DNA from: a virus
Reading direction: 5' to 3' (one strand)
Virus record (IMG/VR): IMGVR_UViG_3300042900_000194
Coordinates: 1-24,623 of that record
DNA: 24,623 nucleotides
Shown here: positions 3,557 to 24,623 of the stretch, one piece after another
Position numbering within the stretch: position 1 is the first letter of the stretch
Layout of the letters: every line of letters begins with the position of its first letter
Translations under genes and position numbers: made by a program
Notes under the pieces: model-generated
Told to the model about the DNA's origin: nothing
What the model saw: only the letters and a program-made list of their open reading frames with translations
Databases searched by the model: none

Positions 3557-5983
3557 TTATTTTAACAAAGCCAGTGATTTTATTCTTGCCAAAAGTGCGT
3601 TGTCAGCTTTGCTTTCATAGTAAGCCTCTTGCTGTTCTCCCATGACAGGAGCCACTGAACCAGCCACTGTGCCCATTTCGTACATGCCACATTCGGTTAG
3701 GCCGTGTTCTGGACAGTATTCACCTTCCATGGTTGCATTGCATGAACCTTCTTTTATTTCTGTGTTTTTGTCTAGTTGGTCTGCAAAATGCGCAATTGCT
3801 GGACTCTTGCCTGCCATGTATGCATCAACGGCTGCGCCTTCGGGCATTATGCTAACATTGTCTTCGTCTAGTCCGGGATTGGATTGATAGTGGTTGTATG
3901 ATGTTGCTACATCGCCTATAAAATCCTCGTCATACGAAATCAAATTGCGAGCAGATCTTGGTGTCATCCCAATAGCAATCAATTCATGATATACTGCATT
4001 ATAAAAATCTTTGCTGGTTTTAAGTGTTGCCATTCCTGGTTTTTCGCGTGCCAACGTCTTGGCAACTATTTCATGGGTGTACTCAGAATTTTCATGAATA
4101 CGACTTTCAGATATAGGTACACCAGCATATTTCAGCATGTCATTGAGTTCTGTGTTTTCTGCCATTCTGCCTATAGCGCGACTGATACCAACTTTGCGAT
4201 TGGCAATCTTAGGATCTTTTTCAAATCGTCCAGGTTCTTTGCTTCCACCTGCAAATGCCTGACTTGCAACTCTAGCCCCTTTACGAAATCCGGTACTATT
4301 GCTACGGTCGGCTACGTCATCAACTGCTTGGTTTACATAGTTGCTGAGTGTGCTGGGACTCAGCTCATCCAACTGATCTTCTGCCACGCCTCTTTTTCTC
4401 ATGGCTGGATTGTTAGCGTCACCATAGCCGCCTTGTTTTGCCCAATCATACGGCTCTACGTTGCCCATGTTAACATTGGCTCCTTTGCCGACTGCTTGTT
4501 TTACACCGGCAGCTCGTTTTTGTTGGAACTTGGCATACTGGTCGCCTTCTGGTCCTTTAATTGCTGATGCTACGCCGTGTGCCCAACCTGCTTGGCCAGC
4601 TGCTTTTCTACCATAACTACTCAATGTTGCTGGACTCAATTCAGCCAACTGATCTTCTGCCACGCCTTGTTCAGGAGTAGTGCCTGGTGCTTGTCGGCCA
4701 GCAGCAGGTGCCACTGGCTGTTGTTGTTCAGCATCAGGTGTGGTGTTCATTTGAATGCCAAGTTCTTGCAGTCTGGCTTGCACATCTGTGTCATCCCAAA
4801 TGTTAGCACGAGGATCTTGTTCGGCCAAATCACCCAGGATATCAAACAATCGATCATCGCCGATGACATCATACAGTTGTTGTGTGGCATTGGTAGCATC
4901 TGGACCAACAATGAGTTCTTGGCTCATGAGTTCGTTTAGTTTGGCTTGTGCTTCTGGTGTATCTGGCAAGGCCCATGTGCCTTCCATGATGTTGTTTATC
5001 CAGTTTTCAAAAATTTGTGCTTCTTTCATAGCGGTTCCTCGTTGTTGTATTTTGGCCAGTGTGGGCAATGCAGCCTCTATTCTGGCGTCTAATGTTTGTT
5101 CAATAAACATGGTCTTAAGATCTTCTACCAAGGCAGTTTCATCTCCAATGTCTGCTGGCGTCCAAGATTCAAAATATTGTGTGTATCCACGGCCTGTGGC
5201 CATGTGCTGTAGATTTCCGCGCAGTTCACTATAGTAGTGCTGTGCAGTTTCTACCAGTTCTTGTGTTACGCCTTCAAACACTCGTTGTTGGCTGGCTCTA
5301 TTGAATCTGCTCAACACAGCCATTTCGCTTACAATTTCGTTGATGTGTTGCCCGCGAATGTCGTAAGGTCTGCCACCTTGTTTCACGTGTTCCAGCATGG
5401 CTCGGCCACCTGACAGTTTCACAAATGGCAGTTTGAATCGTTCGCCTTCGGCTGTTTCAATGAACAAACTTTCCACATAGCGATAGCGTTTGTCATCTTC
5501 GCCAATCATTCGGTTGTGTTTAATCACCAGTCTGGCTTCTGTTTGCTCACCCACATAGCTGATTTTGCGTGTGCCATAGTAGCCTTCGAATAGGCCTTCT
5601 TTGATAGCTGCCATACCTTGCATGGTATGTTTGAGTTGATTGATGTCTTTGGGACTGAATGTGTATCTGTGCTGTGTGGCAAAGTTCTTGAGTTCGGGTA
5701 AAAAGCCTGTTTCACGTTCAGAGCCAAACCAGTCCAGTTTGTCCTGAGGATTTTCCATGGTCTTGCCTAGGTTGTCTCCAAAGAACAACTGTAGGTCGTT
5801 TTCGTCACCTAGTACAATTACTACTGTGCCGTAGTTTTTTCCGGATCCTGCAACCCAGTCAAACGCAAACGTTTTGGCTTCGTCTGGTGAAGAGTCTTGC
5901 CCTTGTCCGTCTGTGTATTTGACGTCGTAGTCTTTGGTTGCCAGCAAGTCAGCAACGTCTTGAGAAATGTTTTCTATAGCCAT
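3557..5983 (-). CDS. Large low-complexity phage protein (808 aa), probable virion or prohead protein
   Basis: There is no catalytic family that I recognise. The N-terminal third (about 1-330) looks globular and mixed alpha/beta. A Gln/Ala/Pro-rich spacer follows (about 415-440). Two copies of GVAEDQL-[AD]-ELSP-[AS]-TLS-[SN]-Y start near residues 440 and 532, the second followed by a basic stretch ending RKVGISRAIGRMAEN. The C-terminus has a Cys/His cluster (SCNATMEGEYCPEHGLTECG) that could bind a metal, and ends ALLARIKSLALLK. ELSxxTLxxY and RxxGIxRA elements recur in head or internal proteins of T4-like phages of aquatic bacteria, so a prohead-core or injected protein is plausible. It follows gp17 by 10 nt. 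ATG 5983 lacks a clear Shine-Dalgarno site and is preceded by GCTAAATA. Confidence 0.75.
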   Translation of the reverse strand: MAIENISQDVADLLATKDYDVKYTDGQGQDSSPDEAKTFAFDWVAGSGKNYGTVVIVLGDENDLQLFFGDNLGKTMENPQDKLDWFGSERETGFLPELKNFATQHRYTFSPKDINQLKHTMQGMAAIKEGLFEGYYGTRKISYVGEQTEARLVIKHNRMIGEDDKRYRYVESLFIETAEGERFKLPFVKLSGGRAMLEHVKQGGRPYDIRGQHINEIVSEMAVLSRFNRASQQRVFEGVTQELVETAQHYYSELRGNLQHMATGRGYTQYFESWTPADIGDETALVEDLKTMFIEQTLDARIEAALPTLAKIQQRGTAMKEAQIFENWINNIMEGTWALPDTPEAQAKLNELMSQELIVGPDATNATQQLYDVIGDDRLFDILGDLAEQDPRANIWDDTDVQARLQELGIQMNTTPDAEQQQPVAPAAGRQAPGTTPEQGVAEDQLAELSPATLSSYGRKAAGQAGWAHGVASAIKGPEGDQYAKFQQKRAAGVKQAVGKGANVNMGNVEPYDWAKQGGYGDANNPAMRKRGVAEDQLDELSPSTLSNYVNQAVDDVADRSNSTGFRKGARVASQAFAGGSKEPGRFEKDPKIANRKVGISRAIGRMAENTELNDMLKYAGVPISESRIHENSEYTHEIVAKTLAREKPGMATLKTSKDFYNAVYHELIAIGMTPRSARNLISYDEDFIGDVATSYNHYQSNPGLDEDNVSIMPEGAAVDAYMAGKSPAIAHFADQLDKNTEIKEGSCNATMEGEYCPEHGLTECGMYEMGTVAGSVAPVMGEQQEAYYESKADNALLARIKSLALLK
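4369..4667 (-). repeat. In-frame direct repeat within the 808-aa gene
   Basis: An identical 23-bp sequence occurs at 4369-4391 and 4645-4667, exactly 276 bp (92 codons) apart. Both copies encode GVAEDQL followed by closely related ELSPxTLSxY segments. This marks an internal duplication of a short module rather than of a whole domain, because the sequence between the copies differs from that after the second copy. Confidence 0.8.
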
Positions 5984-5990
5984 AGTTTGT

Positions 5991-5998
5991 TATTTAGC
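5991..5998 (-). promoter_or_regulatory. GCTAAATA element before the 808-aa gene (possible late promoter variant)
   Basis: The octamer GCTAAATA (5998-5991) contains the TAA stop of gp17 and ends 7 nt before ATG 5983. It matches the T4 late element TATAAATA at six of eight positions. The same octamer precedes the fibre-like gene and the HNH gene. If active, the mRNA would start about 2 nt before the ATG. It may also be a chance product of the stop codon context. Confidence 0.3.
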
Positions 5999-7577
5999 GC
6001 ATCATTGATATGAATGGAAACGGCTCAACAATCATATCTCCGTGGTCTTTTAGGTGTGTGTCCAAGTCTGAGTGGTAGGTTTGCAACAACAACAGCATGC
6101 GCACCGCCAGCAAACTGGCCATGACCAAATCGTCAGTTTCGCCGGGTTTTGCGGCATAGCTAGTGCCCATGGCCACAAACGTTTTGAGTTCTGATACCAA
6201 GGGTCTTGAGTTAATTTTCATACGACCAGACTCTACCAAGATTTTGAACTTGTTACAGGCTGTGATTTTGCTTTTGTTTGTGGTGTTAAAGCCCTTGCGG
6301 AATCTGCGCCCTGTGGAGCCTGTAACTGAATTATCGCTGAGAAAGTATCCTGGAATGTTGTCTTCGCCATATTCTGCTATGCTGATCAAGGCAGCTTCAC
6401 CAATGGTGTTGTTTTCCACTGAGAAATAAATGCTTTTTTCATCTTGAACTACCGCATGCAGTTCTTTAATGATATCTGCAAGAATTCGTATCTGTGTGGG
6501 AATGTCAGTTTTGTTGTGGCGCCATTCAGCAATTTGATCTGTAGTTCTAGCGTCAAAAACTTGTATGGCAGCAGGATCGCCACCTGTGCCCAAGCTGGGA
6601 TCTAATGCCACAACATACATGCCATCTTTAGTGGGAGTCTTGTACCAGCGTACTTGTCCAGTTCTGTGAATGGGTTCTGCACCTTCTAAATCCATCAGTT
6701 TGATAGGTGCTATTAGTGTTTCGTCATTGATAACAAATTCACAATCCATCTCTCTGCGAAAACGTTCTTCGCCCAGCTGAGCCAACTGTTCTGCACCCCA
6801 CTCGTCCCCGCGGTCAGGATGCTCGCGCCAGTATGATCTAAATGCTCGGAATCCGTTGATGCCAAGTTCTGTGGTGTTGCCGTGCTCATCTTCTGTCTTG
6901 TTAGCACCTTTCCACAAGAACGCAAATTGATCCTCGTCTGAGTTGGGAGTACTTGTGATAATTGCTTTACCACCAGTGGCCAGTGTGGGCGAAATTGAAG
7001 TCCAAAACTCTTTGGCAATTGTGGGTCGCACAAACGCAAATTCGTCAGCGTACAGCAAGGATATTGACATACCCCGACCTGTTGTTTCTGTTGTGGTCTG
7101 ACTCACAATGCGTGAGCCGTTTTCAAACTCTACTGATCCTTTGTTATAGCTAGTAGCACCTGCTCGAATGTGGTTAGGGCACAGTTCATAAGCATATCTT
7201 ATACGTTGCATGATTTCTTGTGCGCCTGTGTATTTGTGTGCGGCAATAAGAATTGTGGAGTCTGGCACAAACATAGCATACCACAACAGGTAGCCAGCAG
7301 CAGATGTTGACTTGCCTGTTTGTCGAGGCATCAAGGATATCGAATATCTGTAATTGTGATAGGTATGGATCAGTCGTTTTTGATAGTCAAAAGGATGATA
7401 CAACATCTTGCCGCGTGTGGGGTGCTGAATAAAGAAAAAGTTATCCATGAAATACAGCGGTCCAGTCACAGGATCAGCACACATTGCAAACTCTGTTAGT
7501 TCTTGCTCAGTATATGTTTCAACCCTGTGCGGTGCTTTGACCAGCACTGTTTCTAAATTACTTTTTGGAGAAATCAT
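5994..7577 (-). CDS. 17: Terminase large subunit gp17 (packaging ATPase-nuclease)
   Basis: This is the motor and nuclease that cuts concatemeric DNA and pumps it into the prohead. Counting from ATG 7577 (527 aa), the ATPase domain has Walker A MPRQTGKST (83-91), Walker B SLLYADEF (173-180) and the coupling motif TSTPN (208-212). The RNase H-fold nuclease domain has its first acidic motif VALDPSLGTGGDP near 323-335, a second acidic region around VENNTIGEA, and TDDLVMA near the C-terminus. An in-frame TTG at 7592 would add five residues. ATG 7577 is preferred because it forms an ATGA overlap with the oxygenase stop, implying translational coupling. It is separated from gp16 by about 7 kb, unlike T4. 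Confidence 0.95.
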   Translation of the reverse strand: MISPKSNLETVLVKAPHRVETYTEQELTEFAMCADPVTGPLYFMDNFFFIQHPTRGKMLYHPFDYQKRLIHTYHNYRYSISLMPRQTGKSTSAAGYLLWYAMFVPDSTILIAAHKYTGAQEIMQRIRYAYELCPNHIRAGATSYNKGSVEFENGSRIVSQTTTETTGRGMSISLLYADEFAFVRPTIAKEFWTSISPTLATGGKAIITSTPNSDEDQFAFLWKGANKTEDEHGNTTELGINGFRAFRSYWREHPDRGDEWGAEQLAQLGEERFRREMDCEFVINDETLIAPIKLMDLEGAEPIHRTGQVRWYKTPTKDGMYVVALDPSLGTGGDPAAIQVFDARTTDQIAEWRHNKTDIPTQIRILADIIKELHAVVQDEKSIYFSVENNTIGEAALISIAEYGEDNIPGYFLSDNSVTGSTGRRFRKGFNTTNKSKITACNKFKILVESGRMKINSRPLVSELKTFVAMGTSYAAKPGETDDLVMASLLAVRMLLLLQTYHSDLDTHLKDHGDMIVEPFPFISMMR

Positions 7578-8146
7578 ATTGTAGTTATCCAACTATAGCT
7601 GCTTACTCGGAATTGGTCAGCAGGAACTGGATTCAACATTGCATGCCATTGCAATTTTCTATATCCATCAGTTGGACAATTAATCATAACATATCCTGTA
7701 TTAGGCAGCACTTCAAACTGATGTCGCAGTGCATCTGGCTGTTTGTAATGATAAAATGCAGTACCTAAATTGACAGCGCCAATCCAAGTCATTTGCATGG
7801 CGCCGGGCATTTCGCCGTCAGTGTGCATGGAGCAAGTAAATCCTGGTTCATCAACCCACCATGCAGTGCCTTGATAGTTCTGAACTTTGTATCCGATAGC
7901 GTGTCCTATAATGGGCCAAAGCTGTTGACAAATTTGGTCCCATTCATGCCCCCAAGACAGTGCTGCATTATCTATGCGTCTGCGCGACCATAGTTCTTGT
8001 CCTTCTTGGCGTTGCCATGGTAGTGTCATCCAATCAGTAGAAATTATTTGATCCACCAACGGTTGTGGAAACACATCCGTGATTGCAAACAGATTGTTGT
8101 CTTGATCAACAGGTGTTACTTGCATAGGAATGCCAACTCCGGCCAT
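7574..8146 (-). CDS. 2-oxoglutarate/Fe(II)-dependent oxygenase-like protein
   Basis: A 190-residue protein with the facial triad expected of 2OG-Fe(II) oxygenases: H108-x-D110 in SMHTDGEMP, the distal H168 in QWHAML, and R180 in DQFRVSSY for the 2-oxoglutarate carboxylate. The conserved LPNTGYVMINCP region between them fits the double-stranded beta-helix core. Phage members of this superfamily may hydroxylate proteins, nucleobases or small molecules; the substrate here is unknown. The start is either ATG 8146, inside the radical SAM gene, or ATG 8125 (residue 8); both have a GGAG somewhat far upstream (about 11-13 nt). Tight overlaps with the radical SAM gene (31 or 10 bp) and gp17 (4 bp) suggest co-translation. 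Confidence 0.8.
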   Translation of the reverse strand: MAGVGIPMQVTPVDQDNNLFAITDVFPQPLVDQIISTDWMTLPWQRQEGQELWSRRRIDNAALSWGHEWDQICQQLWPIIGHAIGYKVQNYQGTAWWVDEPGFTCSMHTDGEMPGAMQMTWIGAVNLGTAFYHYKQPDALRHQFEVLPNTGYVMINCPTDGYRKLQWHAMLNPVPADQFRVSSYSWITTI

Positions 8147-9264
8147 AAGCGTTCAAACTCTCCAGCTTTGTCTGGATGATATCGAGTTTCGTTATCGTGT
8201 ATGTGTTTGAAAAATGCTGTGTCAATTTTGCTGACTTTGTTCTCACTCAATCTGTCACGATAGGTGGCCAATGCATTGTCAAAGAACTGTCGTTCAGCAG
8301 GGGTAGCAATGTTCATAGCATAGAAGCGTTCAATCTCTGCTATAGCTTCCCGTGCCACACCTGCACCATGCAAGAACGGATCAAGGTATTCAGGCTGAAA
8401 CAAGTTTTGCCACAGCACTGTGGTTCCTGTATCTTCAGCAAACTGTCTTAACTCACAAATGCGTGTGGCATTGTATATGTTGTATACCGCATGTATACCA
8501 CCCCATTGACCGTGTGTAGTCATTAGGTGTTTGATCTTACTCAAGTTTTCTTTGATTAACGCCCAGCTGGCACCGTGTCGCACATACTCCACTCGCTCAC
8601 CTATATTGTCAAAGCTCATTGACCAACCTACTCGATTGCGTGTTGATAACTTTTGAAATATCTTGTTTGAATCCAAGTCCACATTCAAGTTTGTGATCAG
8701 CGTGACTATGGCATCCTTGGGTATGACATCTAACAATCGATTGTTTTCTGGCAGCAACAACGGTTCGCCACCCACAAGTGCTACTTCGTGTATGTGTTCA
8801 TAGTGTTGTTCAATAAAATCGCATACTGAATCATAGTAAGGTCTTGCACCACTCTTGAATGGAATACCCTTAATGCTGGCCCATTTTGAACTGCATGACT
8901 CACCGCAATAGTTACAACTCAAATTGCATGTGGTGTTCCAACGCACATCCACAATCACAGGATAGTGATACTGGTCTCCGGCTGTGGCATAATCAAAGTT
9001 GGGATTTACATTGTTGTGCCATTGACGTTCTGAATCAGCACCAAAGCGTTCGGCTCGCACACAGTTAGAACAGTATTCATGCGGCTTGCCTTGGGCCAAA
9101 CTGGTGCGTATCTCTGACATGAGATTGGAATTTAATATTTGTTCAATTGTTTGGGTATTGAGGTTGCCCAGCATGTTGGGGTTGCCAGCACAGCAGGTTT
9201 TAACATCGCCACGGGGATTGATATGTAGGCCACGCCACGGAGCGGCACAATAGAAATTGCTCAT
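8116..9264 (-). CDS. Radical SAM enzyme with N-terminal SPASM/twitch-like domain
   Basis: Radical SAM enzymes cleave S-adenosylmethionine at a 4Fe-4S cluster to start radical chemistry. In 382 residues the cluster motif is C113-x3-C117-x2-C120 (CNLSCNYC), followed by the glycine-rich SAM-binding segment VALVGGEPLL. The N-terminus has a SPASM/twitch-like Cys set: FYCAAPW (C6), GDVKTCCAGN (C24, C25) and EYCSNC (C65, C68), suggesting an auxiliary cluster. Such enzymes typically modify peptides or proteins. The frame is open upstream to a TTG at 9414, but that extension is rejected because the family starts at FYCxxPW. ATG 9264 has no spaced Shine-Dalgarno, and TAAATA sits exactly 4 nt before it. 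The adjacent 2OG oxygenase suggests a joint modification pathway. Confidence 0.88.
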   Translation of the reverse strand: MSNFYCAAPWRGLHINPRGDVKTCCAGNPNMLGNLNTQTIEQILNSNLMSEIRTSLAQGKPHEYCSNCVRAERFGADSERQWHNNVNPNFDYATAGDQYHYPVIVDVRWNTTCNLSCNYCGESCSSKWASIKGIPFKSGARPYYDSVCDFIEQHYEHIHEVALVGGEPLLLPENNRLLDVIPKDAIVTLITNLNVDLDSNKIFQKLSTRNRVGWSMSFDNIGERVEYVRHGASWALIKENLSKIKHLMTTHGQWGGIHAVYNIYNATRICELRQFAEDTGTTVLWQNLFQPEYLDPFLHGAGVAREAIAEIERFYAMNIATPAERQFFDNALATYRDRLSENKVSKIDTAFFKHIHDNETRYHPDKAGEFERLWPELAFLCK

Positions 9265-9278
9265 CCTGTATTTACAGG
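9265..9278 (-). repeat. Inverted repeat directly in front of the radical SAM start codon
   Basis: CCTGTA-TT-TACAGG (9265-9278) abuts ATG 9264 and contains both the stop of the preceding small gene (9272-9274) and the TAAATA element (9274-9269). As RNA it would form a 6-bp hairpin, although a 2-nt loop is too tight without opening one pair. As DNA it is a near-perfect palindrome that could be an operator. Confidence 0.45.
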
Positions 9279-9463
9279 TGTATTTGGATGAGCTGTGCTT
9301 TTGTTGTCGGGGTTTCTGGAGGACAGCAAAATCTAGGATTGCACCATTCGTCTTGGGTGTTATGGTAGTCGTTTGCATAAGCCAAACTAATACCTGCGCA
9401 ACACAATCCTGCAAACACTATCTTTAAGATATTTTGTATTGTCATTATTCTGATTGTCTGCAT
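9272..9463 (-). CDS. Tiny secreted Cys-containing protein (63 aa or 57 aa)
   Basis: The ORF encodes a clear signal peptide (ILKIVFAGLCCAGISLAYA with cleavage expected before ND) and a mature part of about 33 residues with a WCNPRFCCPP cluster. Start is ATG 9463, or more conventionally ATG 9445 (MTIQNILK...), which gives a short basic n-region. Neither has a good Shine-Dalgarno. It begins 15 nt after the thermonuclease stop and ends 7 nt before the radical SAM ATG, so it fits the operon without overlap. I know no family. A role in the periplasm with the secreted nuclease, or as a peptide substrate of the radical SAM enzyme, is speculation. Its small size leaves some doubt that it is expressed. 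Confidence 0.55.
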   Translation of the reverse strand: MQTIRIMTIQNILKIVFAGLCCAGISLAYANDYHNTQDEWCNPRFCCPPETPTTKAQLIQIHL

Positions 9464-9478: not shown

Positions 9479-9919
9479 TTAGTTACACCAAGATGTTTTG
9501 GCTTCGCCGTAGTATTCACGGGCAAAACCTTGTGCAATAAGCATTTGACGCAGGCTCTGTCCGTTTAACAAGACATCTCCTAGCACACGGCCACCATACT
9601 TGTCCCAGTCCATGAGTACAACCTGACGTTGTGAAGCCTGAGCAACGGCTGCTTTAGTGAATGCTGAAGCTGCTTCGCCGCGCTGTGCTTCACTAGCACA
9701 CTGAGCACGATGTCCTTTTTCAGGGGTGTCCACACCAAACACTCTGATTGAAAGTTCTTTTTTGAGTGGAGCAGGCAAGAAGTCTGCTTGAAAAGCCACT
9801 GTGTCACCGTCTATGACTCTGGTGATTTGTGCGTCATAGGTCACACCGGGTTTTTGTCGGGGTTGTGCAATGGCCAGCACGGGTACGATGAGTAAGAGTA
9901 GGAAGAGTTTTTTTATCAT
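9479..9919 (-). CDS. Secreted thermonuclease (staphylococcal nuclease family)
   Basis: Ca2+-dependent phosphodiesterase of the SNase fold that degrades DNA and RNA. The 146 residues start with a signal peptide (MIKKLFLLLLIVPVLAIA, cleavage before QP), so it should be exported to the periplasm or medium. Catalytic motifs are complete: VIDGDT (D37, D39), IRVFGVDTPE (R59, D64, E67) and KYGGRVLGD (R111). The C-terminal QGFAREYYG helix is typical. Start ATG 9919 overlaps the fibre gene stop by 4 bp (ATGA). A leadered SNase among virion genes is unusual for a T4-like phage. It may scavenge host or extracellular nucleic acid, attack competing phage DNA, or act during lysis; the sequence does not decide. 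Confidence 0.9.
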   Translation of the reverse strand: MIKKLFLLLLIVPVLAIAQPRQKPGVTYDAQITRVIDGDTVAFQADFLPAPLKKELSIRVFGVDTPEKGHRAQCASEAQRGEAASAFTKAAVAQASQRQVVLMDWDKYGGRVLGDVLLNGQSLRQMLIAQGFAREYYGEAKTSWCN

Positions 9920-10524
9920 GCTATTTGATATGTGCCAGAAAGATCAAAGTGTGCGCCTGATTGCCAGGCGCCTGTGGCCGGAGTGTTGAATTTCCAAACT
10001 AGATCAGTGGTGCTACCAGAATAGTATAGTTTCATGACTGTGGTGCTGTCAATGACGTCTGTGATTCCAGCAATATGGTACAAGGCAGGAGAACCAGCAC
10101 CGGCTGTTTGATGCAGACTGCCGCCGGCCAGTCTAAATGTGTTTAGTGCGGGTGTGGGCAGTGTAATCTGATATCCTGTGCTGCCAAAGTTGGTAACTCC
10201 TGCAAAATCCACATACACATGTATAAACATCAGCGGACCCATACGCACATAGGATGCTGTGGCAGTGCCGCCAGCAAATGTGCCTGATCCGTCAGTAAAC
10301 TGCGGGTTGAATGTTGTGGTGCTGGTAACGCCAGATCCGTATGCAACCAAATTTAGATTTCCATTGACGTTGCCTACATAGATATCTTGTGTGAGTTGGT
10401 TGACTACTAATTCACTAGGTCTAGCAACACCATTGTAATTGCCAATGGTTTCTTGTGCATTGTCTTTCATCACAGCACGGCTTATGCCTGTGATGTTGTC
10501 GTATGGTGGGGGTGGATTGGCCAT
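9916..10524 (-). CDS. Fibre-like virion protein (202 aa)
   Basis: The N-terminus (MANPPPPYDNITGISRAVMK) is followed by ARPSELVVNQLTQDIYVG and NVNGNLNLV. This short collar-like motif occurs at the N-termini or repeats of phage fibre and appendage proteins (ARPGELVVD...LYVGD...GNL). The C-terminal half is Thr/Gly/Ser-rich and beta-strand-like (FAGGTATASYVRMGPLMFIH...YQITLPTP), as expected for a trimeric head or tail appendage domain. It is short for a tail fibre, so a head fibre or whisker-like decoration is possible. GCTAAATA lies 18 nt upstream of the ATG; the Shine-Dalgarno is weak. It overlaps the thermonuclease start by 4 bp. Confidence 0.65.
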   Translation of the reverse strand: MANPPPPYDNITGISRAVMKDNAQETIGNYNGVARPSELVVNQLTQDIYVGNVNGNLNLVAYGSGVTSTTTFNPQFTDGSGTFAGGTATASYVRMGPLMFIHVYVDFAGVTNFGSTGYQITLPTPALNTFRLAGGSLHQTAGAGSPALYHIAGITDVIDSTTVMKLYYSGSTTDLVWKFNTPATGAWQSGAHFDLSGTYQIA

Positions 10525-10561: not shown

Positions 10562-10951
10562 TTAGCGTGGGTAGCCAACAAATGCTTTTACGGGGCTTGT
10601 TTTATCAACAAAGTTGGGTTCTGTACTGTCGGGAGTTGACACCAATTTCTTGCCACCGGGCGTGTTGGTCATGGTCAATGCTTGATCAATAAGTTGTGCA
10701 ATGTTTGGACTCATACCTGCTACCACGCCGTGTTCACCAAATGCTGTTTCGTCATGCCAGGCTGGAATGCTATCAACAATGCCATCTGTTCCAGCATCAC
10801 TTCGTGCTCGAGCAAGAGCCACACCAAATCTATAGTTGCGATAAGGGTCAGCAGCACTCAGCCCCGGAACTACATATGTGTAACGCATGGGATCTGCTTG
10901 CTCAGGTGGCAACATAGCAGCCTGTTCACGAAGAAATTCTCTTGCTCTCAT
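10562..10951 (-). CDS. Small probable internal head protein (129 aa) with capsid-targeting-like N-terminus
   Basis: Starts MRAREFLREQ, close to the capsid-targeting sequence of T4 internal proteins (MKTYQEFIAE), and ends TSPVKAFVGYPR. The upstream neighbour begins MRALEFIAEN and ends TSPVTAFKGYPR, while the middles of the two proteins do not resemble each other. The middle here (YRNYRFGVALARARSDAG) is basic and mixed. In T4 such N-termini direct proteins into the prohead and are removed by the gp21 protease; applying that here is inference. ATG 10951 overlaps the stop of the upstream gene by 4 bp. No enzymatic motif is visible. Confidence 0.7.
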   Translation of the reverse strand: MRAREFLREQAAMLPPEQADPMRYTYVVPGLSAADPYRNYRFGVALARARSDAGTDGIVDSIPAWHDETAFGEHGVVAGMSPNIAQLIDQALTMTNTPGGKKLVSTPDSTEPNFVDKTSPVKAFVGYPR

Positions 10952-11319
10952 CGTGGATAGCCTTTGAATGCTGTTACTGGGCTGGTGGCATTTACTCCTG
11001 GATGTTCTTGGCTGTGTAAATCGCCTTTGTTTAGATCTTTAAAATTGGATCCAGCGGCTCGGTATGCCATTAACAGCATGTTGTGTTCTTCTTTTGTGTA
11101 AGGCGCAGCAATGTCATATCGTCCAGCCCAACTTTCATTGTCTATTGTGGGAACAAAAGTTCCATCAGTAGCTGCGGTTGCCATCATAATTCTATTAAGT
11201 TCATACACACGATCCGCAAGATTTTTGTCTCGAAATTTATGTAGACCTACAGTGGCATTTTGATTGCGTTTGCTAATCTTTCCAGCGCCATTTTCAGCAA
11301 TGAACTCAAGTGCTCTCAT
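10948..11319 (-). CDS. Small probable internal head protein (123 aa), terminal motifs shared with its neighbour
   Basis: Starts MRALEFIAENGAGKISKRNQ, similar to T4 internal-protein capsid-targeting sequences, and ends ATSPVTAFKGYPR. The centre contains KFRDKNLADRVYELNRIMMA and ESWAGRYDIAAPYTKEEHNM, an all-helical-looking block that I associate with uncharacterised proteins of aquatic T4-like phages. No catalytic residues are evident. The start codon shares one base with the stop of the 98-aa gene (TGATG), and its stop overlaps the next gene by 4 bp, so the three are translationally coupled. A role as a packaged or injected protein is an inference from the termini. Confidence 0.72.
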   Translation of the reverse strand: MRALEFIAENGAGKISKRNQNATVGLHKFRDKNLADRVYELNRIMMATAATDGTFVPTIDNESWAGRYDIAAPYTKEEHNMLLMAYRAAGSNFKDLNKGDLHSQEHPGVNATSPVTAFKGYPR

Positions 11320-11615
11320 CAGGCACTACCATAGCCAATCACACCTTCTTGTGCAGACGATGCTGTGCCAAGTTCTGCGGCAGTAAAGTTAGATCCAGTG
11401 ACTGTTAATTTATTTCCAGCACCAACATAAATTTGTGCCGAGTTGTTTGCTGGTATTGATGGTGCTGCACTCCAGATATTACCCACTGGTGAAGCTGTGC
11501 CCAATGCAGTTGCATAAACATTATAAGTCACTGCGGTGTTGCCTGTTACAATTTCACATTTGTCTGTGTACCAGGTGGCATTGGCCACCGAAGTATAAAC
11601 GTTTGCTTGACTCAT
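11319..11615 (-). CDS. Small putative virion protein (98 aa)
   Basis: Composition is Ala, Thr, Ser, Asn and Gly-rich and beta-strand-like (AVTYNVYATALGTASPVG, NKLTVTGSNFTAAELGTAS), resembling small decoration or appendage proteins, but I cannot assign a family. There is no signal peptide; the two polar halves look like a small beta-sandwich. ATG 11615 overlaps the stop of the 58-aa gene as ATGA, and its stop touches the 123-aa gene start. It sits in the structural gene run, which is the main support for a virion role. Confidence 0.6.
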   Translation of the reverse strand: MSQANVYTSVANATWYTDKCEIVTGNTAVTYNVYATALGTASPVGNIWSAAPSIPANNSAQIYVGAGNKLTVTGSNFTAAELGTASSAQEGVIGYGSA

Positions 11616-11788
11616 TTGTTGTCCTTGTTGGGTTGACTGACCACGGGTTGAAATAGTTCACGACTTTGATACATCACTCCAGGAATTTCCACAGGTTGTT
11701 GTCTCACTGAAGGAATAACTGGAGGTACATATTCATTGGCTTTGCGTTGTGCCAATTCGGCTGCAAGTTCGCTGTATGGTCTCATCAT
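11612..11788 (-). CDS. Small hypothetical protein (58 aa)
   Basis: An ORF from ATG 11788 (second ATG 11785) to TGA 11612-11614 encodes a Pro- and Gln-rich peptide starting MMRPYSELAAELAQRKANEY and ending QPNKDNK. It has a strong Shine-Dalgarno (AAGGGG, about 8 nt before the first ATG), begins 4 nt after the stop of the 795-aa gene, and overlaps the 98-aa gene start by 4 bp. Those three features make it a convincing gene despite its size. The N-terminal helix followed by VPPVIP suggests a short adaptor or core-associated peptide, but its function is unknown. Confidence 0.72.
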   Translation of the reverse strand: MMRPYSELAAELAQRKANEYVPPVIPSVRQQPVEIPGVMYQSRELFQPVVSQPNKDNK

Positions 11789-11792
11789 TTTT

Positions 11793-14180
11793 TTACCCCT
11801 TGTAGGCTGTCCATTGGTTGGTCAAAGCAAAAATACTTTCTTCAACTTTTTTCTCTTTGTCTTTTGCAGCTTTTTTCATTGGCTCTTCTTTGTCGCCATC
11901 TTTGTCTATGTCTAAGAAGTCAGGCTTTTTGCCTTCTTTAATTCCTGCAATGCCACGCATGCGGTTTAAAGTTTGTTCAAAACTTTCTTCAAGTTCTTTT
12001 TCCTCGGCTTCTTCTTCAGTTTCTTCTTCTGCATCTTCTTTCATGGTGCGTTCCCATGGCTTGAGATTATCTTGTTGAATGCCAGACATTTCCATCATTC
12101 TACGAAGTTCTTGGTCATCTTCATATGTGTGTTGACGGTCTTCTTGGCTGGCCAATACTGGTACAGTTGATTGCCCAGTTGACTTAGGACCGTTCAACCC
12201 ACCTGAATATTGTAGTGCATCGTCACTGGTTTCCTGGTCAGTTGGCCAATCTGGATTGTTTTCGTCCAGAGTTTCATGTACATCACCGCAACCGCAGCTA
12301 CTCATACCGCAGTCTGCGCATGATTCTTCGCCTTGGTCCATTTCTTGTCCCATGCCCTCACCACCACCTAGTCCTGCATTTTTAAGCAGTCCTGCTAGTT
12401 TGAGTGCATCATCATCTGTAGCAGTGATAGTCAAGCTCTTGCCGCCCTCAGTTGAGTCGCTCATGTTCACGCTCATTGATTCAGCAATCATCTTTTCCAG
12501 TTCGCGATTCATTGAATCGTAAATGCCTTTTCCATAGCTAAAGCCGCTTGATGCTGTTGGGGTGTCTGTGCCGCCTTGCTCTTTGACTTTTTTAGGCTTG
12601 TCCTCTTTGCTGTCTTTCTTTTCGTCGTACTCGATATCTTTGGCAACTTTCTTGCCGGCCTTTTCCGCCTTGGCATCTTCAGAGCCACGCTTCTTGCCGT
12701 GGATATCATCTTTCTTCTTCTCGTCGTACTCAATGTCTTTGGTAACTTTGCGGCCGGCCTTTTCAGCACGGTTGTCACGTTTGTTGGTTGACTCTTCGCC
12801 CATGGCCATTTCTTCGTCGTCACCTTCTTGATTCTGCATGTAGTCGTCCACAGCAGTCATCATGCTTTCAATCTTGGCCAACTTGGATTGTACCCATTCT
12901 GGCAAGTTGTCGTTGTCGCCTAGAATCTTTTCCAAGGCCTGAGCATGCCGCACCACAGTCTTGATGCTGTCTTTGGCCATGTCGCCTTCTTGGTCGTATT
13001 CGCCTTTTTCCGCTGGATCAAGGTCGTTTTCTTTGGTCATTAGTTTAGACCGACCTGATGGTCCTTTGGCACCCATTTTGCTGCCTGTGCCTGCTGGTCT
13101 ACCACGACCACGCTTTTGTGGTTCAGTATCAGCAGCATCATCTGCACCTACTGAATTACCTTGGTCATCTACTCTGCGAGTTACTTTACGGCCTGTGGCA
13201 GTGTGTTCAATATCATGCTTGTGGCCACGTTCAATGGATCCAACACGAGGTTTTTCTGCACGTGGCTTTTTCCATGATGTAAACGGATTGTTATCATCTT
13301 CTTCGGTAGTTTCTTGTTTGTTGCCGCCTTTACGGAGCATAGCAAAGTCATTAGCATCAAGTTTGCCATTTTTGTTCATGTCAATTTTCTTTTGCTTGGG
13401 ACTCAATGCTGATTTTATTGCTTCGGCAGCAACGTCACCTAGCATTTCGTCAACTTCTTTTTTGGCGCCGGCAATCTTGTCAGCAAAAGTGATTTTGTCT
13501 TTGGGTTCAGCGAGTGCGGCAAATGATTTTTGCTTGGCAGTCATTGGAGAACTTCCTTCGCCAAATTGTACATTGTCGCCTGCTGAGAATTGTGTGTTGG
13601 CCAAACGCTTTGGTAACCGACCTTTGGCAATGATAAAATCTAATTCGCGATCAGTTGGTCCAGCCTGTGCAAGATCGTTAGCTAGATCCTGCATAGCATC
13701 ATTTTCCCACATGTCATCACCATACAATGCGGCAATGGCGTTTAACACTTTGTCAAAATCAATTGGAGCAGTTACTTCTTTAACTTGCTTTGGATTAGGT
13801 TCAGCACCAGGCTTCATACCAGTTTGTGGCATGTCCATTTTGCGTTGCAGGTCACGAATCATGTCTACATCGCTGCCGTGACCCAGTTTGTTTAACACCG
13901 CGCCGCCAACTTTCTTGGCCATGCTGCCAACTTTCTTGACTGCATCCCCCATGCCTTCGTCTACTTCTTTGTTGTCATACTTGTCATACTTGTTGCGAAT
14001 AGGATCCAATGACTTGCCTTCACGACCGGCTTTGGCCAAGGCTTCCATGCCTTCTTTGCCGTATTTTTCGTAGCCCTTGGCAGCACGGCTCATGTCGCGT
14101 TCGTTCAACTGGCCGTGTGTTTTGCTAGGTGTGGCACGAATTTCGTCCAGTTTTTTGTTTAAGTCGTAAAAAAATGTCAT
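11793..14180 (-). CDS. Highly charged low-complexity protein (795 aa), probable prohead core or internal protein
   Basis: There is no enzyme family that I recognise. The protein is Lys/Glu/Asp-rich throughout. Visible elements are two EF-hand-like loops, DMNKNGKLDANDF (about 267-279) and LDIDKDGDKEEP (about 755-766); an imperfect tandem repeat with core AEKAG[RK]KV[TA]KDIEYDEKK 33 residues apart (about 470-520); a Cys cluster CADCGMSSCGCGD (about 640); an acidic stretch EDAEEETEEEAEEKELEE; and two segments, ELRRMMEMSGI and TLNRMRGIAGI. Charged repetitive composition fits a scaffold or core protein in a head gene run. Start ATG 14180 has a GAGGAT Shine-Dalgarno. The EF-hand-like loops suggest Ca2+ binding, but they may be isolated linear motifs. 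Confidence 0.75.
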   Translation of the reverse strand: MTFFYDLNKKLDEIRATPSKTHGQLNERDMSRAAKGYEKYGKEGMEALAKAGREGKSLDPIRNKYDKYDNKEVDEGMGDAVKKVGSMAKKVGGAVLNKLGHGSDVDMIRDLQRKMDMPQTGMKPGAEPNPKQVKEVTAPIDFDKVLNAIAALYGDDMWENDAMQDLANDLAQAGPTDRELDFIIAKGRLPKRLANTQFSAGDNVQFGEGSSPMTAKQKSFAALAEPKDKITFADKIAGAKKEVDEMLGDVAAEAIKSALSPKQKKIDMNKNGKLDANDFAMLRKGGNKQETTEEDDNNPFTSWKKPRAEKPRVGSIERGHKHDIEHTATGRKVTRRVDDQGNSVGADDAADTEPQKRGRGRPAGTGSKMGAKGPSGRSKLMTKENDLDPAEKGEYDQEGDMAKDSIKTVVRHAQALEKILGDNDNLPEWVQSKLAKIESMMTAVDDYMQNQEGDDEEMAMGEESTNKRDNRAEKAGRKVTKDIEYDEKKKDDIHGKKRGSEDAKAEKAGKKVAKDIEYDEKKDSKEDKPKKVKEQGGTDTPTASSGFSYGKGIYDSMNRELEKMIAESMSVNMSDSTEGGKSLTITATDDDALKLAGLLKNAGLGGGEGMGQEMDQGEESCADCGMSSCGCGDVHETLDENNPDWPTDQETSDDALQYSGGLNGPKSTGQSTVPVLASQEDRQHTYEDDQELRRMMEMSGIQQDNLKPWERTMKEDAEEETEEEAEEKELEESFEQTLNRMRGIAGIKEGKKPDFLDIDKDGDKEEPMKKAAKDKEKKVEESIFALTNQWTAYKG
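12622..12770 (-). repeat. Imperfect tandem repeat in the 795-aa gene
   Basis: Two related blocks of about 50 bp (near 12622-12671 and 12721-12770) are offset by 99 bp, i.e. 33 codons, so the repeat is in frame. They encode the two AEKAGxKVxKDIEYDEKK segments. Several synonymous differences separate the copies, so the protein repeat is older or under selection, not a fresh slippage event. Confidence 0.75.
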
Positions 14181-14185
14181 TTCAA

Positions 14186-14794
14186 TTATCCTCGAGGTTG
14201 TGCGCCAGTAGCGGGCTTGGGTTGACGCTTGATATTGGTCATAGGGCTTGTGTTGCCCTGGGGAAGTTCATTAGTGGTCTTAGCAGGAGGTGTCTTACCA
14301 CCGGCCACTGTGAAATCACTGCGGTAAGCATTTTTCAACACAGCATGATTGTACGGACCAGTTGAATAGTCTTTCTTGAGTGCTCGTTGTTCAGCATCAG
14401 GTGCTGGATAGTCTGTGTTGGCTAACAGGTCTTTGTTTTCTGTTTCAACTCGATCTGCTTCGTCAACAAGTCCATCTACATATGGCTGTGTTTGCATCAC
14501 AATAAGATTGGGGTTGCCGCCAAGCATTTGAAACAACTGTTTGATCTGTGGTTCAATTGCAGGATACTTGAAACTCACATCAAACATTGTCACAGCATCA
14601 TTCTGATTGTTCGGAAAGTCTGTAAGGATCTTTTGTATGGGAGTGGTCTTGGCATCGCCCAATTTGGCTGGATCAAATTGATCCAGTTTTGATTTGAGTT
14701 GACGCACAAGATCGTCTGGAATGCGACCGCACATTTTGATACGATAATCGTATGTACGTTCACTTTCTGCTAGATATTTGGCAAATGGTTTCAT
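14186..14794 (-). CDS. Conserved T4-like virion structural protein (202 aa)
   Basis: Recognisable by RTYDYRIKMCG (14-24), an FDPAKLGDAKTTPIQK segment, and VTMFDVSFKYPAIEPQIKQL (about 69-88), features I associate with an uncharacterised structural protein of cyanophages and other aquatic T4-like phages. The N-terminus MKPFAKYLAES resembles capsid-targeting sequences. The C-terminal tail is a low-complexity Pro/Lys/Thr segment containing NTSPMTNIKRQ. Start ATG 14794 has an AGGAA Shine-Dalgarno, and AATAAATA lies just upstream. It is followed after 5 nt by the 795-aa gene. The exact virion role is unknown. Confidence 0.75.
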   Translation of the reverse strand: MKPFAKYLAESERTYDYRIKMCGRIPDDLVRQLKSKLDQFDPAKLGDAKTTPIQKILTDFPNNQNDAVTMFDVSFKYPAIEPQIKQLFQMLGGNPNLIVMQTQPYVDGLVDEADRVETENKDLLANTDYPAPDAEQRALKKDYSTGPYNHAVLKNAYRSDFTVAGGKTPPAKTTNELPQGNTSPMTNIKRQPKPATGAQPRG

Positions 14795-15323: not shown

Positions 15324-15755
15324 CTATGCTTTACCGTTCTTAAACATATCGTCTTCAGTTATGACTCTAAAAGTCAGGCCTTGATTTCTGCACCATTTGG
15401 TTGCAGCGTCCCATTTGGCGTAATTCACCGCTACCACAGCACGGTCTCTGGGTTTTTGACCTTCTGTTATGGCACTCTGACCTTTGGGCTTGATTTCAAT
15501 CAGCTCAGCTTTGAGGGTGTTGTTGCGAGTCTTGTAAGTGATCAAAAAGTCTGGCACATACGTGGTCATTTTGCCAGTCAAGGGATGAAGGTACGGTATG
15601 CGGATGCTTTCACTTGCCCATTGCATGATGTTGTCATTGGTGTCGCAAAAACGCATGAAAGAATGTTCCCATCCCGATCTGTATCTGGGCATGCCTTGGC
15701 CCACATATTTTTTAGTGTTAATAACTTGGTAGACGCCTTGTGCCCACTTGCTCAT
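15324..15755 (-). CDS. 4: Head completion protein gp4
   Basis: Acts on filled heads before tail joining in T4. The 143-residue protein has a restriction-endonuclease-like core: E30 in YRSGWEHSF, PDF at 68-70 and the E-x-K segment ELIEIKPK (84-91), preceded by the MQWASESIRIPY strand. These are the typical landmarks of phage gp4, which has a PD-(D/E)xK fold. The likely catalytic acid and lysine residues are retained. The start overlaps the upstream stop by 4 bp (ATGA), coupling it to the 121-aa gene. Placement between baseplate/tail genes and gp16 differs from T4. Confidence 0.9.
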   Translation of the reverse strand: MSKWAQGVYQVINTKKYVGQGMPRYRSGWEHSFMRFCDTNDNIMQWASESIRIPYLHPLTGKMTTYVPDFLITYKTRNNTLKAELIEIKPKGQSAITEGQKPRDRAVVAVNYAKWDAATKWCRNQGLTFRVITEDDMFKNGKA

Positions 15756-16126: not shown

Positions 16127-17287
16127 TCAAGGATAAAATTGTGAGCCAGGTAAACCAGCTCTGGTGGCTTGAGCATTAGGAAACACCCACCCATCAGCTT
16201 TGTTGATTACTGATCTAACAGCACCTGCACCTTGTTGGCTGATAACCTGTTTGCCCAGCGATACAGCTTCACTCTGAACAATTGATTTCAAATTTTTACC
16301 TTTAAATGTGTTGTAAGTGGCACCAGCTTTTTGTGCAGCACCAATGAGACCAGCCACTGACCCAGATTCTAAATCTGCCATGATACCTTCTCCAGTAGAT
16401 AGCAGGCCGCCTTGACCAAAGATGCTGGCAGTGGATCCTGCACGAGCCAACGGGCTTGGAGTTTCGTCATAGTGTGCTGTATCTGGCCATGATATGTTTT
16501 TGTCTGGTTTACCAAGGCCACCATTGAGATATTTCACAGTTTCGTAACGGATAGTCATGCTGTGTTGCATGGTACCGCTGCCTTGTGAGTAATCGTAAGT
16601 GTCGTGATTCCATGCAGTAATCAGCGGATTGATCAAAATATATCTAGCATACTTGTGTTGATCAAACCCAATGATTTGTATGTCTTTGAAAAATGGTGGC
16701 TTACCTGATGCTGTGCTGGTGCCATCCATAAAGTTTTCGCCAATAAATCCCCAATCACTAACACTGCCTATTCGATTTTGTGCGTAGATGTCTCTGTTGT
16801 TGTAACTGAATCCATTTTGTTTGGTAGCATTTTCGCCAACGGTGCCATAAGAAGTGGGTGCATTGCTGATGTATTGCTGTGCTGGATCTTTGTAGTAGTA
16901 AGAATAATACTGATACCACATCTCACGAATGTTGTCACCACCGTCATCATGGAACGTGATGTTTACAGGTTCGTAGTTGATTTTTGTTTGCACAAGGCGT
17001 TTGCGATTGTACTGATTTAATGTAGCAACGTCAATGTTGTATTTGGGCAAGTCAACAGTTTTTACCGCCAAGCTCAGTGTTGAAATTTGTGTTGGACCAA
17101 ATATTTTAGAATTTTTTAGTGCTTGTATTTCTTCCACGTTCAGGGTAAACTGAACATGGAATAAAAATTTAAATCTGGGTTTTAGTTCGTAGGCATTAGT
17201 GCGAAAAGTTTTACTTGCGTGAGTGTAATCACGCAAGCTGTTTGTCGCAGTAAAACCTTTAAGAAAGTCTTGGCCGAAGCTAGACAT
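16127..17287 (-). CDS. Tail-tube-like virion protein (386 aa), possibly gp54/gp48-related
   Basis: FLKGFTATNSLRDYTHASKTF leads into LKPRFKFLFHVQFTLN, then LAVKTVDLPKYNIDVATLNQYNRKR, INYEPVNITFHDD and HSMTIRYETVKY. Strand order and the PxFxFxVxF...VDLPxY...PVxITFHDD pattern follow the tail-tube fold used by gp19 and the tube-initiator gp54. In T4-like phages of aquatic bacteria a longer tube-like protein of this type is common. The C-terminal 120 residues are Gly/Ala/Ser-rich and extended. It starts 10 nt after gp19, with an AAGGT Shine-Dalgarno. Role as tube initiator, cap or terminator is plausible; the specific T4 equivalent is uncertain. Confidence 0.6.
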   Translation of the reverse strand: MSSFGQDFLKGFTATNSLRDYTHASKTFRTNAYELKPRFKFLFHVQFTLNVEEIQALKNSKIFGPTQISTLSLAVKTVDLPKYNIDVATLNQYNRKRLVQTKINYEPVNITFHDDGGDNIREMWYQYYSYYYKDPAQQYISNAPTSYGTVGENATKQNGFSYNNRDIYAQNRIGSVSDWGFIGENFMDGTSTASGKPPFFKDIQIIGFDQHKYARYILINPLITAWNHDTYDYSQGSGTMQHSMTIRYETVKYLNGGLGKPDKNISWPDTAHYDETPSPLARAGSTASIFGQGGLLSTGEGIMADLESGSVAGLIGAAQKAGATYNTFKGKNLKSIVQSEAVSLGKQVISQQGAGAVRSVINKADGWVFPNAQATRAGLPGSQFYP

Positions 17288-23729: not shown

Positions 23730-23737
23730 TATTTATA
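23730..23737 (-). promoter_or_regulatory. T4-type late promoter (TATAAATA) for gp13
   Basis: An exact TATAAATA on the minus strand (23737-23730) overlaps the TAA stop of the radical SAM gene. The predicted start near 23724 gives an 11-nt leader containing GGAG before ATG 23713. Confidence 0.8.
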
Positions 23738-24623
23738 GCTTGATGCTGCCTTTGCGTACCGGAGCAATCATTATATTTTTTCTATGTGTAGGACAAAACT
23801 TACACTGAGCAATAGGGTTGTTTAGACTTTCTAAAAACTCATCTTTATATTCAGCAAAATTATCCACTGTAAGCGGCTGGTAGGAGTTTAGTAGTTCTCG
23901 GTCGCTATCAGAAATATCAAATTTATGTTGAAGATCAAACTCAGGCAAGAGTGCCGCAGGGCCGCATTTGTACAGTTTGCCACGTATAAAATGATAGCTT
24001 TTAAATTTTACAAAAGTGCATGCGTCATGTGCTATTGCAGGGTCATTGTTGAATAATGCATAACGCCCTTCTGGGTTAACTTGCACTGTAGATGTATCAA
24101 AACTGTTTTGAAAATAAACATTTATAAACACACCATTGCGGTCTGAATATTGATAGTCAGCGTTCCACAAATCAGGACGGTGCGTGTTTTGTTTTACAGG
24201 ACCTTCCAAAAATTCATGTATGTCTGCTTGTAATTGCTCCAAGTCTGCTAAATTGTGCAAACTTATGGCAATACTGTTCTTGTTTCCGTTCCGTGGTTTG
24301 GCATGTGCAATAGCGTCATACAGGCCCCGTACTTGGGTAAGTCGGGTGCCATTTGTTAGCACTTGCACTTCAATCCCAAATGCATCGTTAAGGCCGTGTA
24401 TCCATTCTACGATTGTGGGATTGAGCAAAGGCTCACCGCCCATTATGGTGATGGCCTTTAGATCAATTAACTCTGCCCACTGCTTGTATTGTTCAGCATG
24501 ATCGCTCCATCGTTGCCAGCCCTTGAAATCAAAATTATTAAATCTATTACATTGTTCGCAAGTTAGATTGCAAACGTTGGTAATGTAAACTTCAATTTTG
24601 TTAAAAACAGTGCGGGCATTGTT
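23733..24623 (-). CDS. Radical SAM/SPASM protein, partial (5' end outside window)
   Basis: The frame stays open to the right edge, so Met 24443 is internal. About 296 residues are visible. Near the start is YITNVCNLTCEQCNRF, the CxxxCxxC cluster motif, then the SAM-binding segment ITIMGGEPLLNP. A C-terminal SPASM-like Cys set follows: DACTFVKF, LYKCGPA and CKFCP. SPASM enzymes usually modify peptides or proteins; phage members are common in aquatic T4-like genomes but their substrates are not established. It differs in architecture from the other radical SAM protein here, whose auxiliary Cys cluster is N-terminal. Its stop codon lies inside the gp13 late promoter. Confidence 0.88.
   Translation of the reverse strand, partial: NNARTVFNKIEVYITNVCNLTCEQCNRFNNFDFKGWQRWSDHAEQYKQWAELIDLKAITIMGGEPLLNPTIVEWIHGLNDAFGIEVQVLTNGTRLTQVRGLYDAIAHAKPRNGNKNSIAISLHNLADLEQLQADIHEFLEGPVKQNTHRPDLWNADYQYSDRNGVFINVYFQNSFDTSTVQVNPEGRYALFNNDPAIAHDACTFVKFKSYHFIRGKLYKCGPAALLPEFDLQHKFDISDSDRELLNSYQPLTVDNFAEYKDEFLESLNNPIAQCKFCPTHRKNIMIAPVRKGSIKL

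Follow-up and report, generated by a model that had tools for sequence, protein, structure and literature searches.

Most of what is known of capsid-targeting leaders comes from T4-type phages; in T4 itself, the leader of the internal proteins reads MKTYQEFIAE. Internal head proteins are usually hard to recognize, because their bodies vary. In T4, the internal proteins IPI, IPII, and IPIII and the Alt protein carry a 10-residue capsid-targeting sequence (CTS) that is cleaved by gp21 (PMC9026906, PMC10229621, PMC3012670), which cuts after L/I-x-E (PMC9026906). Within the IPIII leader, targeting is governed by residues 4 and 7 and processing by residues 8 and 10 (PMC9026906).

We analyzed a 24,623-nt fragment of viral DNA, IMG/VR virus record IMGVR_UViG_3300042900_000194 (the window), in which two adjacent genes, A and B, encode proteins that share both a leader and a C-terminal motif. 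The resemblance to the T4 internal proteins lies in the short N-terminal leader ending in phi-x-E, the small size of the proteins, the presence of a gp21-type (S77) protease in the phage, and the reuse of the leader on unrelated bodies. Unlike the T4 proteins, A and B are strictly conserved tandem paralogues in a head-gene block and end in a conserved peptide; their bodies showed no sequence relation to those of IPI, IPII, IPIII, or Alt. DarB of phage P1, a phage that appears to have no separate scaffold, is comparable in that residues at its N terminus are enough to send cargo into the head, but about 30 residues are used and they form no phi-x-E leader family (PMC9024508). The ejected head proteins of SPN3US and phiKZ are likewise processed by a gp21-like protease, at a motif like that of T4, and their propeptide is thought to target them, but SPN3US propeptides have about 110 to 130 residues (PMC7411985), compared with 9 in the A/B leader.

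Results

The window carries T4-like genes for the tail sheath, tail tube, head completion protein, large terminase, and single-strand DNA-binding protein. All features located in this section by window positions alone are on the minus strand if they belong to A, B, or their conserved neighbors. Gene A (10948 to 11319) encodes 123 amino acids (aa), MRALEFIAEN...TSPVTAFKGYPR, and gene B (10562 to 10951) encodes 129 aa, MRAREFLREQ...TSPVKAFVGYPR. The two overlap by 4 nt, ATGA at 10948 to 10951, with the start of B inside the stop codon of A. The leaders, MRALEFIAE in A (11293 to 11319) and MRAREFLRE in B (10925 to 10951), have a predicted cleavage site after E9, and B from residue 10 onward would read QAAMLPPEQADPMR. 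The cores comprise residues 10 to 112 of A (10984 to 11292) and residues 10 to 118 of B (10598 to 10924). They are followed by SPVTAFKGYPR and a stop codon in A (10948 to 10983) and by SPVKAFVGYPR and a stop codon in B (10562 to 10597). No downstream gene overlaps B, and its C-terminal motif is therefore not there as a ribosome site. Both open reading frames (ORFs) are as an earlier note on this DNA had described them, with a common start, MRAxEF[IL]xE, and a common end, SPVxAFxGYPR.

When a DNA pattern for SPVxAFxGYPR followed by a stop codon was scanned over IMG/VR, at least 120 stretches matched, and relatives of A and B are present in hundreds of IMG/VR contigs. Among the matches listed, ORFs marked by the C-terminal motif are almost all 122 to 138 aa long, and 169 of 177 distinct full-length ones start with MRAxEF[ILV]xE. 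This co-occurrence of the two ends is far beyond chance. Even when leader and tail were trimmed off, the 177 sequences formed a single cluster (BLAST, E of 1e-5). Core-only clustering resolved two subgroups of 80 distinct members each, one of the A type and one of the B type, and several small ones, which core-only BLAST and hhalign link to the A core. The A and B core profiles aligned over their full length (hhalign; probability, 89%; E of 2e-6), and an alignment of all types contained an invariant Y39, R43, S102, and E104 in addition to both ends. Core linkage, profile comparison, and alignment therefore identify A and B as diverged tandem paralogues and, as judged from these comparisons, all carriers of the motif are one diverged domain family. 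The earlier claim that the centers of A and B differ did not hold, and unrelated cores with shared tags are ruled out by the BLAST linkage and hhalign. Tandem arrangement is common: of 244 locus-strands with a family member, 171 hold two, 21 hold three, and 6 hold four, and 194 consecutive family pairs in the fetched loci share the 4-nt overlap, although these counts are not all independent, since certain contigs contributed more than one locus.

The C-terminal motif does not travel on its own. In its relaxed form, it was found only at extreme C termini, with no internal occurrence, and a second scan with the peptide SPVx[AG]FxGY[PK] gave 475 stretches, 444 of which encode an A/B-family relative. 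By this count, the motif belongs to the A/B domain and is not a portable tag, contrary to the proposal of identical tags on different cores; it is most likely a binding peptide.

Neither A nor B matched any sequence in Pfam, PHROGs, NCBIfam, or PDB. No convincing homologue was found among about 50,000 cultured phage records (one match with an E of 0.8 was set aside), and no relative was found in bacterial or archaeal genomes. AlphaFold models were of moderate quality (pLDDT, 68 for A and 79 for B), and the leader was the least certain part; in B it contains a short helix at residues 3 to 7, with pLDDT below 50 at residues 5 to 9. With these only moderate models, fold searches gave no match for A and no PDB match for B. 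The B model aligned with A0A6J5KNQ7 in BFVD over 122 columns (Foldseek; E of 4e-4; TM, 0.50; 24% identity), and this unannotated protein of an uncultured Caudovirales phage is probably a member of the A/B family. At one further locus (L115:4458-5189, minus strand), a HELVH metallopeptidase-like domain (weak Peptidase_M78 match) precedes a B-type domain in one fused protein, and the sequence IYE at the junction keeps the phi-x-E site.

Among 301 distinct family members, R2 and F6 are each present in 300 and E9 is present in 293. Leader positions 1 to 3, 5, 6, and 9 are almost fixed, positions 4 and 8 are variable, and variability jumps from residue 10. Residue 7 is I, L, or V, and the valine found in 70 of the 301 extends the L/I rule of T4. 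Eight members lack E9: seven are extended, as in MRAREF-VSAK-ITE, and the other reads MRAREFVIQE. All eight keep phi-x-E, shifted by 1 to 4 residues. Of 329 closed family ORFs, 327 have the leader, among them 38 whose C termini are altered; the leader is thus the more constrained end. Codons vary synonymously throughout the leader and the C-terminal motif, indicating selection on the protein. Relative to T4 IPIII, the A/B leader is one residue shorter and keeps equivalents of residues 7, 8, and 10 but not of residue 4.

Five records of 286 to 349 kb (G001 to G005) were read whole. Each genome contains 2 to 6 leader-like starts among about 360 to 450 genes, compared with 0.02 to 0.05 expected from internal frequencies. 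The exact leader DNA pattern matched 26 times in nine records, always at a gene start on the coding strand, and had no match in reversed controls. Two leader-like calls, MRTVDFLPE on a long tail-like ORF of G002 and MKWQYLRE in G001, are looser, start with GTG, and are probably coincidences. A second cluster, in which the leader stands on unrelated bodies, was found in G003 (L209:6855-10903; G003 266855 to 270903), G001 (L192:11389-12955), G002 (60.4 to 65.3 kb), and G004 (61530 and 184569). In G003, it encodes a double GNAT protein, a DUF6321 protein, a weak RegB-like protein, and a protein that is ParB-like by eye; in G001, it encodes one untyped protein and a weak GNAT. A NUDIX protein of G001 starts with MRANEF and lacks the glutamate. 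None of the second-cluster proteins carries the C-terminal motif. It is this cluster, and not A and B, that fits the idea of one tag on different bodies, and its enzyme-like proteins are candidates for injection.

Tiny proteins of 65 to 72 aa were also observed in which the leader is followed by a copy of the gp23 sequence found after its predicted cleavage site (NASAGSTSAGxIA). They are located at L209:10703-10903, G002 65051 to 65248, and G004 186603 to 186821 (gp23 itself is in L182:6455-7648), appear to mimic the N-arm of mature gp23, and have a similar stretch in EST35_0203 of Pseudomonas phage PA5oct.

The 202-aa protein encoded upstream of A (14186 to 14794) starts with MKPFAKYLAES, as had been noted earlier, and its leader (residues 1 to 10; 14765 to 14794) is in the T4 register, MKPFAKYLAE|S. 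F4, Y7, L/I8, and E10 are each present in 64 of 64 homologues. All four functional positions of IPIII (4, 7, 8, and 10) match in the same register and, on this alignment, the leader is even closer to that of T4 than are those of A and B. The protein is a weak match to phrog_14802, a virion structural protein, and has a PA5oct homologue, EST35_0202 (profile E of 5e-20), which is annotated as a structural protein from electrospray tandem mass spectrometry (ESI-MS/MS). The sequence NTSPM, about 20 residues from its end, had been grouped with the C-terminal motif of A and B; this assignment is ruled out, since NTSPM is part of a separate conserved tail, ..SPMTxIKRPPKPATGANPRG.

The gp21 protease (PF03420) was found above the cutoff in all five records of >280 kb, and no gp21 gene is within the 24.6-kb window. 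The head genes are in a T4-like order: portal (gp20), gp67-like, gp21, gp22-like, and gp23. The gp23 homologue contains YLKE|NAS(A/S)GST in all five records; in G001, the sequence after E42 is NASAGSTSAGNIATLNR. The gp21-type protease probably cuts gp23 at YLKE|NAS, as predicted from this sequence. Together with the conserved phi-x-E and the unrelated bodies elsewhere, the protease and the matching gp23 site bear out the suggestion that these N termini are like T4 capsid-targeting leaders.

The genes around A and B have a conserved order: sheath, tube, gp4, 164 aa, 202 aa, 795 aa, 98 aa, A, B, and terminase. All four of the large records that cover the whole region have this order; the fifth, G005, ends just after B, and the 98-aa gene, A, and B are consecutive in all five. 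The 98-aa gene (11319 to 11615) lies directly upstream of A, is the upstream neighbor in 149 of 194 loci, and has no match in cultured phages. The 795-aa modular protein (11793 to 14180) is syntenic in all five records; the PA5oct protein at its place, equated by position and not by sequence, is annotated as structural and was detected by MS. Also syntenic are the gp4-like head-closure/completion protein upstream (15324 to 15755; phrog_218, E of 3e-40) and the large terminase gp17 downstream (5994 to 7592; phrog_36964, E of 1e-117).

Several other features of the window were recorded. The product of 9916 to 10524, a 202-aa protein starting MANPPPPYDN, is 97% identical in G001, whose neighboring genes are 40 to 80% identical, and a nuclease (9479 to 9919) is 90% identical in G002; these identities suggest recent gene exchange. 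A radical SAM gene of the NF033640 twitch-domain type, above the cutoff, lies near the terminase gene (8116 to 9414), and a second radical SAM-like ORF is at the window edge (23733 to 24623). A second tail-tube-like protein of 386 aa (16127 to 17287; phrog_13438 and phrog_4542) adjoins the tail tube gene. Repeated short modules are found in the 808-aa product of 3557 to 5983 and in the 795-aa protein (GVAEDQLDELSP..; KKPDFLDIDKDGDKEEPMKKAAKDK).

Discussion

A and B are probably paralogous CTS-tagged prohead-core or internal head proteins of uncultured T4-like jumbo phages. This reading draws on homology, conservation, the modular N terminus, the protease gene, and the head-gene context seen in the genomes. 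According to this model, the first nine residues, MRAxEF[ILV]xE, would dock A and B on the assembling prohead core, and the gp21-type protease would then cut after the glutamate. After maturation, the domain would remain inside the DNA-filled head, from which it may be ejected. The leader would be reused in a modular way, on the 202-aa protein and on the enzyme-like cargo of the second cluster. A and B are strictly conserved and have a constant position between the genes for head completion and terminase, which suggests that the core has a structural or DNA-organizing role more than a host-specific counterdefense role.

Some observations stand against this reading. The nearest cultured phages by gp23 (66 to 67% identity), namely, Vibrio 2.275.O, Sinorhizobium Phosso, and the Pseudomonas PA5oct group, were searched as 2.275.O, Phosso, and PA5oct, and neither A/B nor the exact leader was found in them. 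EST35_0202 lacks the phi-x-E site, having YYDAS at that place. A loose phi-phi-x-E N terminus is not enriched among the MS-detected proteins of PA5oct (4/93 versus 12/352); since PA5oct also lacks the strict leader, its MS data are no test of leader cleavage. In addition to its shorter length, the A/B leader has no fixed counterpart of the T4 targeting residue Y4.

A and B could instead be tagged effectors that are injected against host defense, like IPI and Alt of T4, and not part of the head structure. T4 internal proteins with a CTS counter host defense (PMC3012670), tandem paralogues diversify, and the second cluster carries enzyme-like cargo. We nevertheless regard this as a possible but rather unlikely account of A and B, which occur in synteny in each of the five large records, whereas the T4 internal proteins are hypervariable, and which have no catalytic motif and no structural match to an inhibitor.

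It is more doubtful that A and B are ordinary structural proteins of the neck or head shell that fold and remain uncleaved in the virion, the N terminus being no more than their first helix and resembling the T4 CTS by convergence. The location of A and B among head and tail genes and the short helix predicted in B agree with such a protein, but this N terminus is also carried by unrelated bodies encoded elsewhere in the genome, the phi-x-E site persists when its spacing from the start shifts, and the AF2 confidence at the N terminus is low.

Equally tentative, and offered by analogy, is a wider reading of the preferred model as a general cargo system. One cleavable leader would load the conserved A and B together with variable enzymes, for which acetyltransferases and ParB-like and RegB-like nucleases are candidates, and the invariant C-terminal peptide of A and B would serve to dock them on the inside of the capsid wall or on DNA. 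Such docking can be likened to that of encapsulin, in which cargo peptides dock on an HK97-fold shell.

The model of the earlier note, a modular family of different cores with an independent targeting signal at each end, appears improbable. In its favor, both ends are highly conserved and occur together, but the cores are homologous, the C-terminal motif stays with one domain in 444 of 475 cases and is absent from the second-cluster proteins, and the 38 members with altered C termini keep the leader. Of the two proposed signals, the N-terminal one is upheld and the C-terminal one is not. Finally, it is scarcely credible that A and B share their ends only as a consequence of recent duplication or DNA-level signals such as a ribosome site or ATGA coupling in the C-terminal codons: the ATGA overlap puts the end of A just before the start of B, but A and B are strongly diverged in the core, and a DNA-level cause is ruled out by the synonymous codon variation and by equal conservation of the motif without gene overlap (Lys at x of FxGYPR in 62/90 overlapping and 67/107 nonoverlapping genes).

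As CTS-tagged internal head proteins, A and B would add a new family, with one more conserved end, to the T4 system as it is known. In these uncultured jumbo phages, the leader can be read directly from the sequence, where it marks a strictly conserved family of probable internal proteins as well as enzyme-like candidates for injection. It is a simple genomic rule that may serve to predict other phage payloads.
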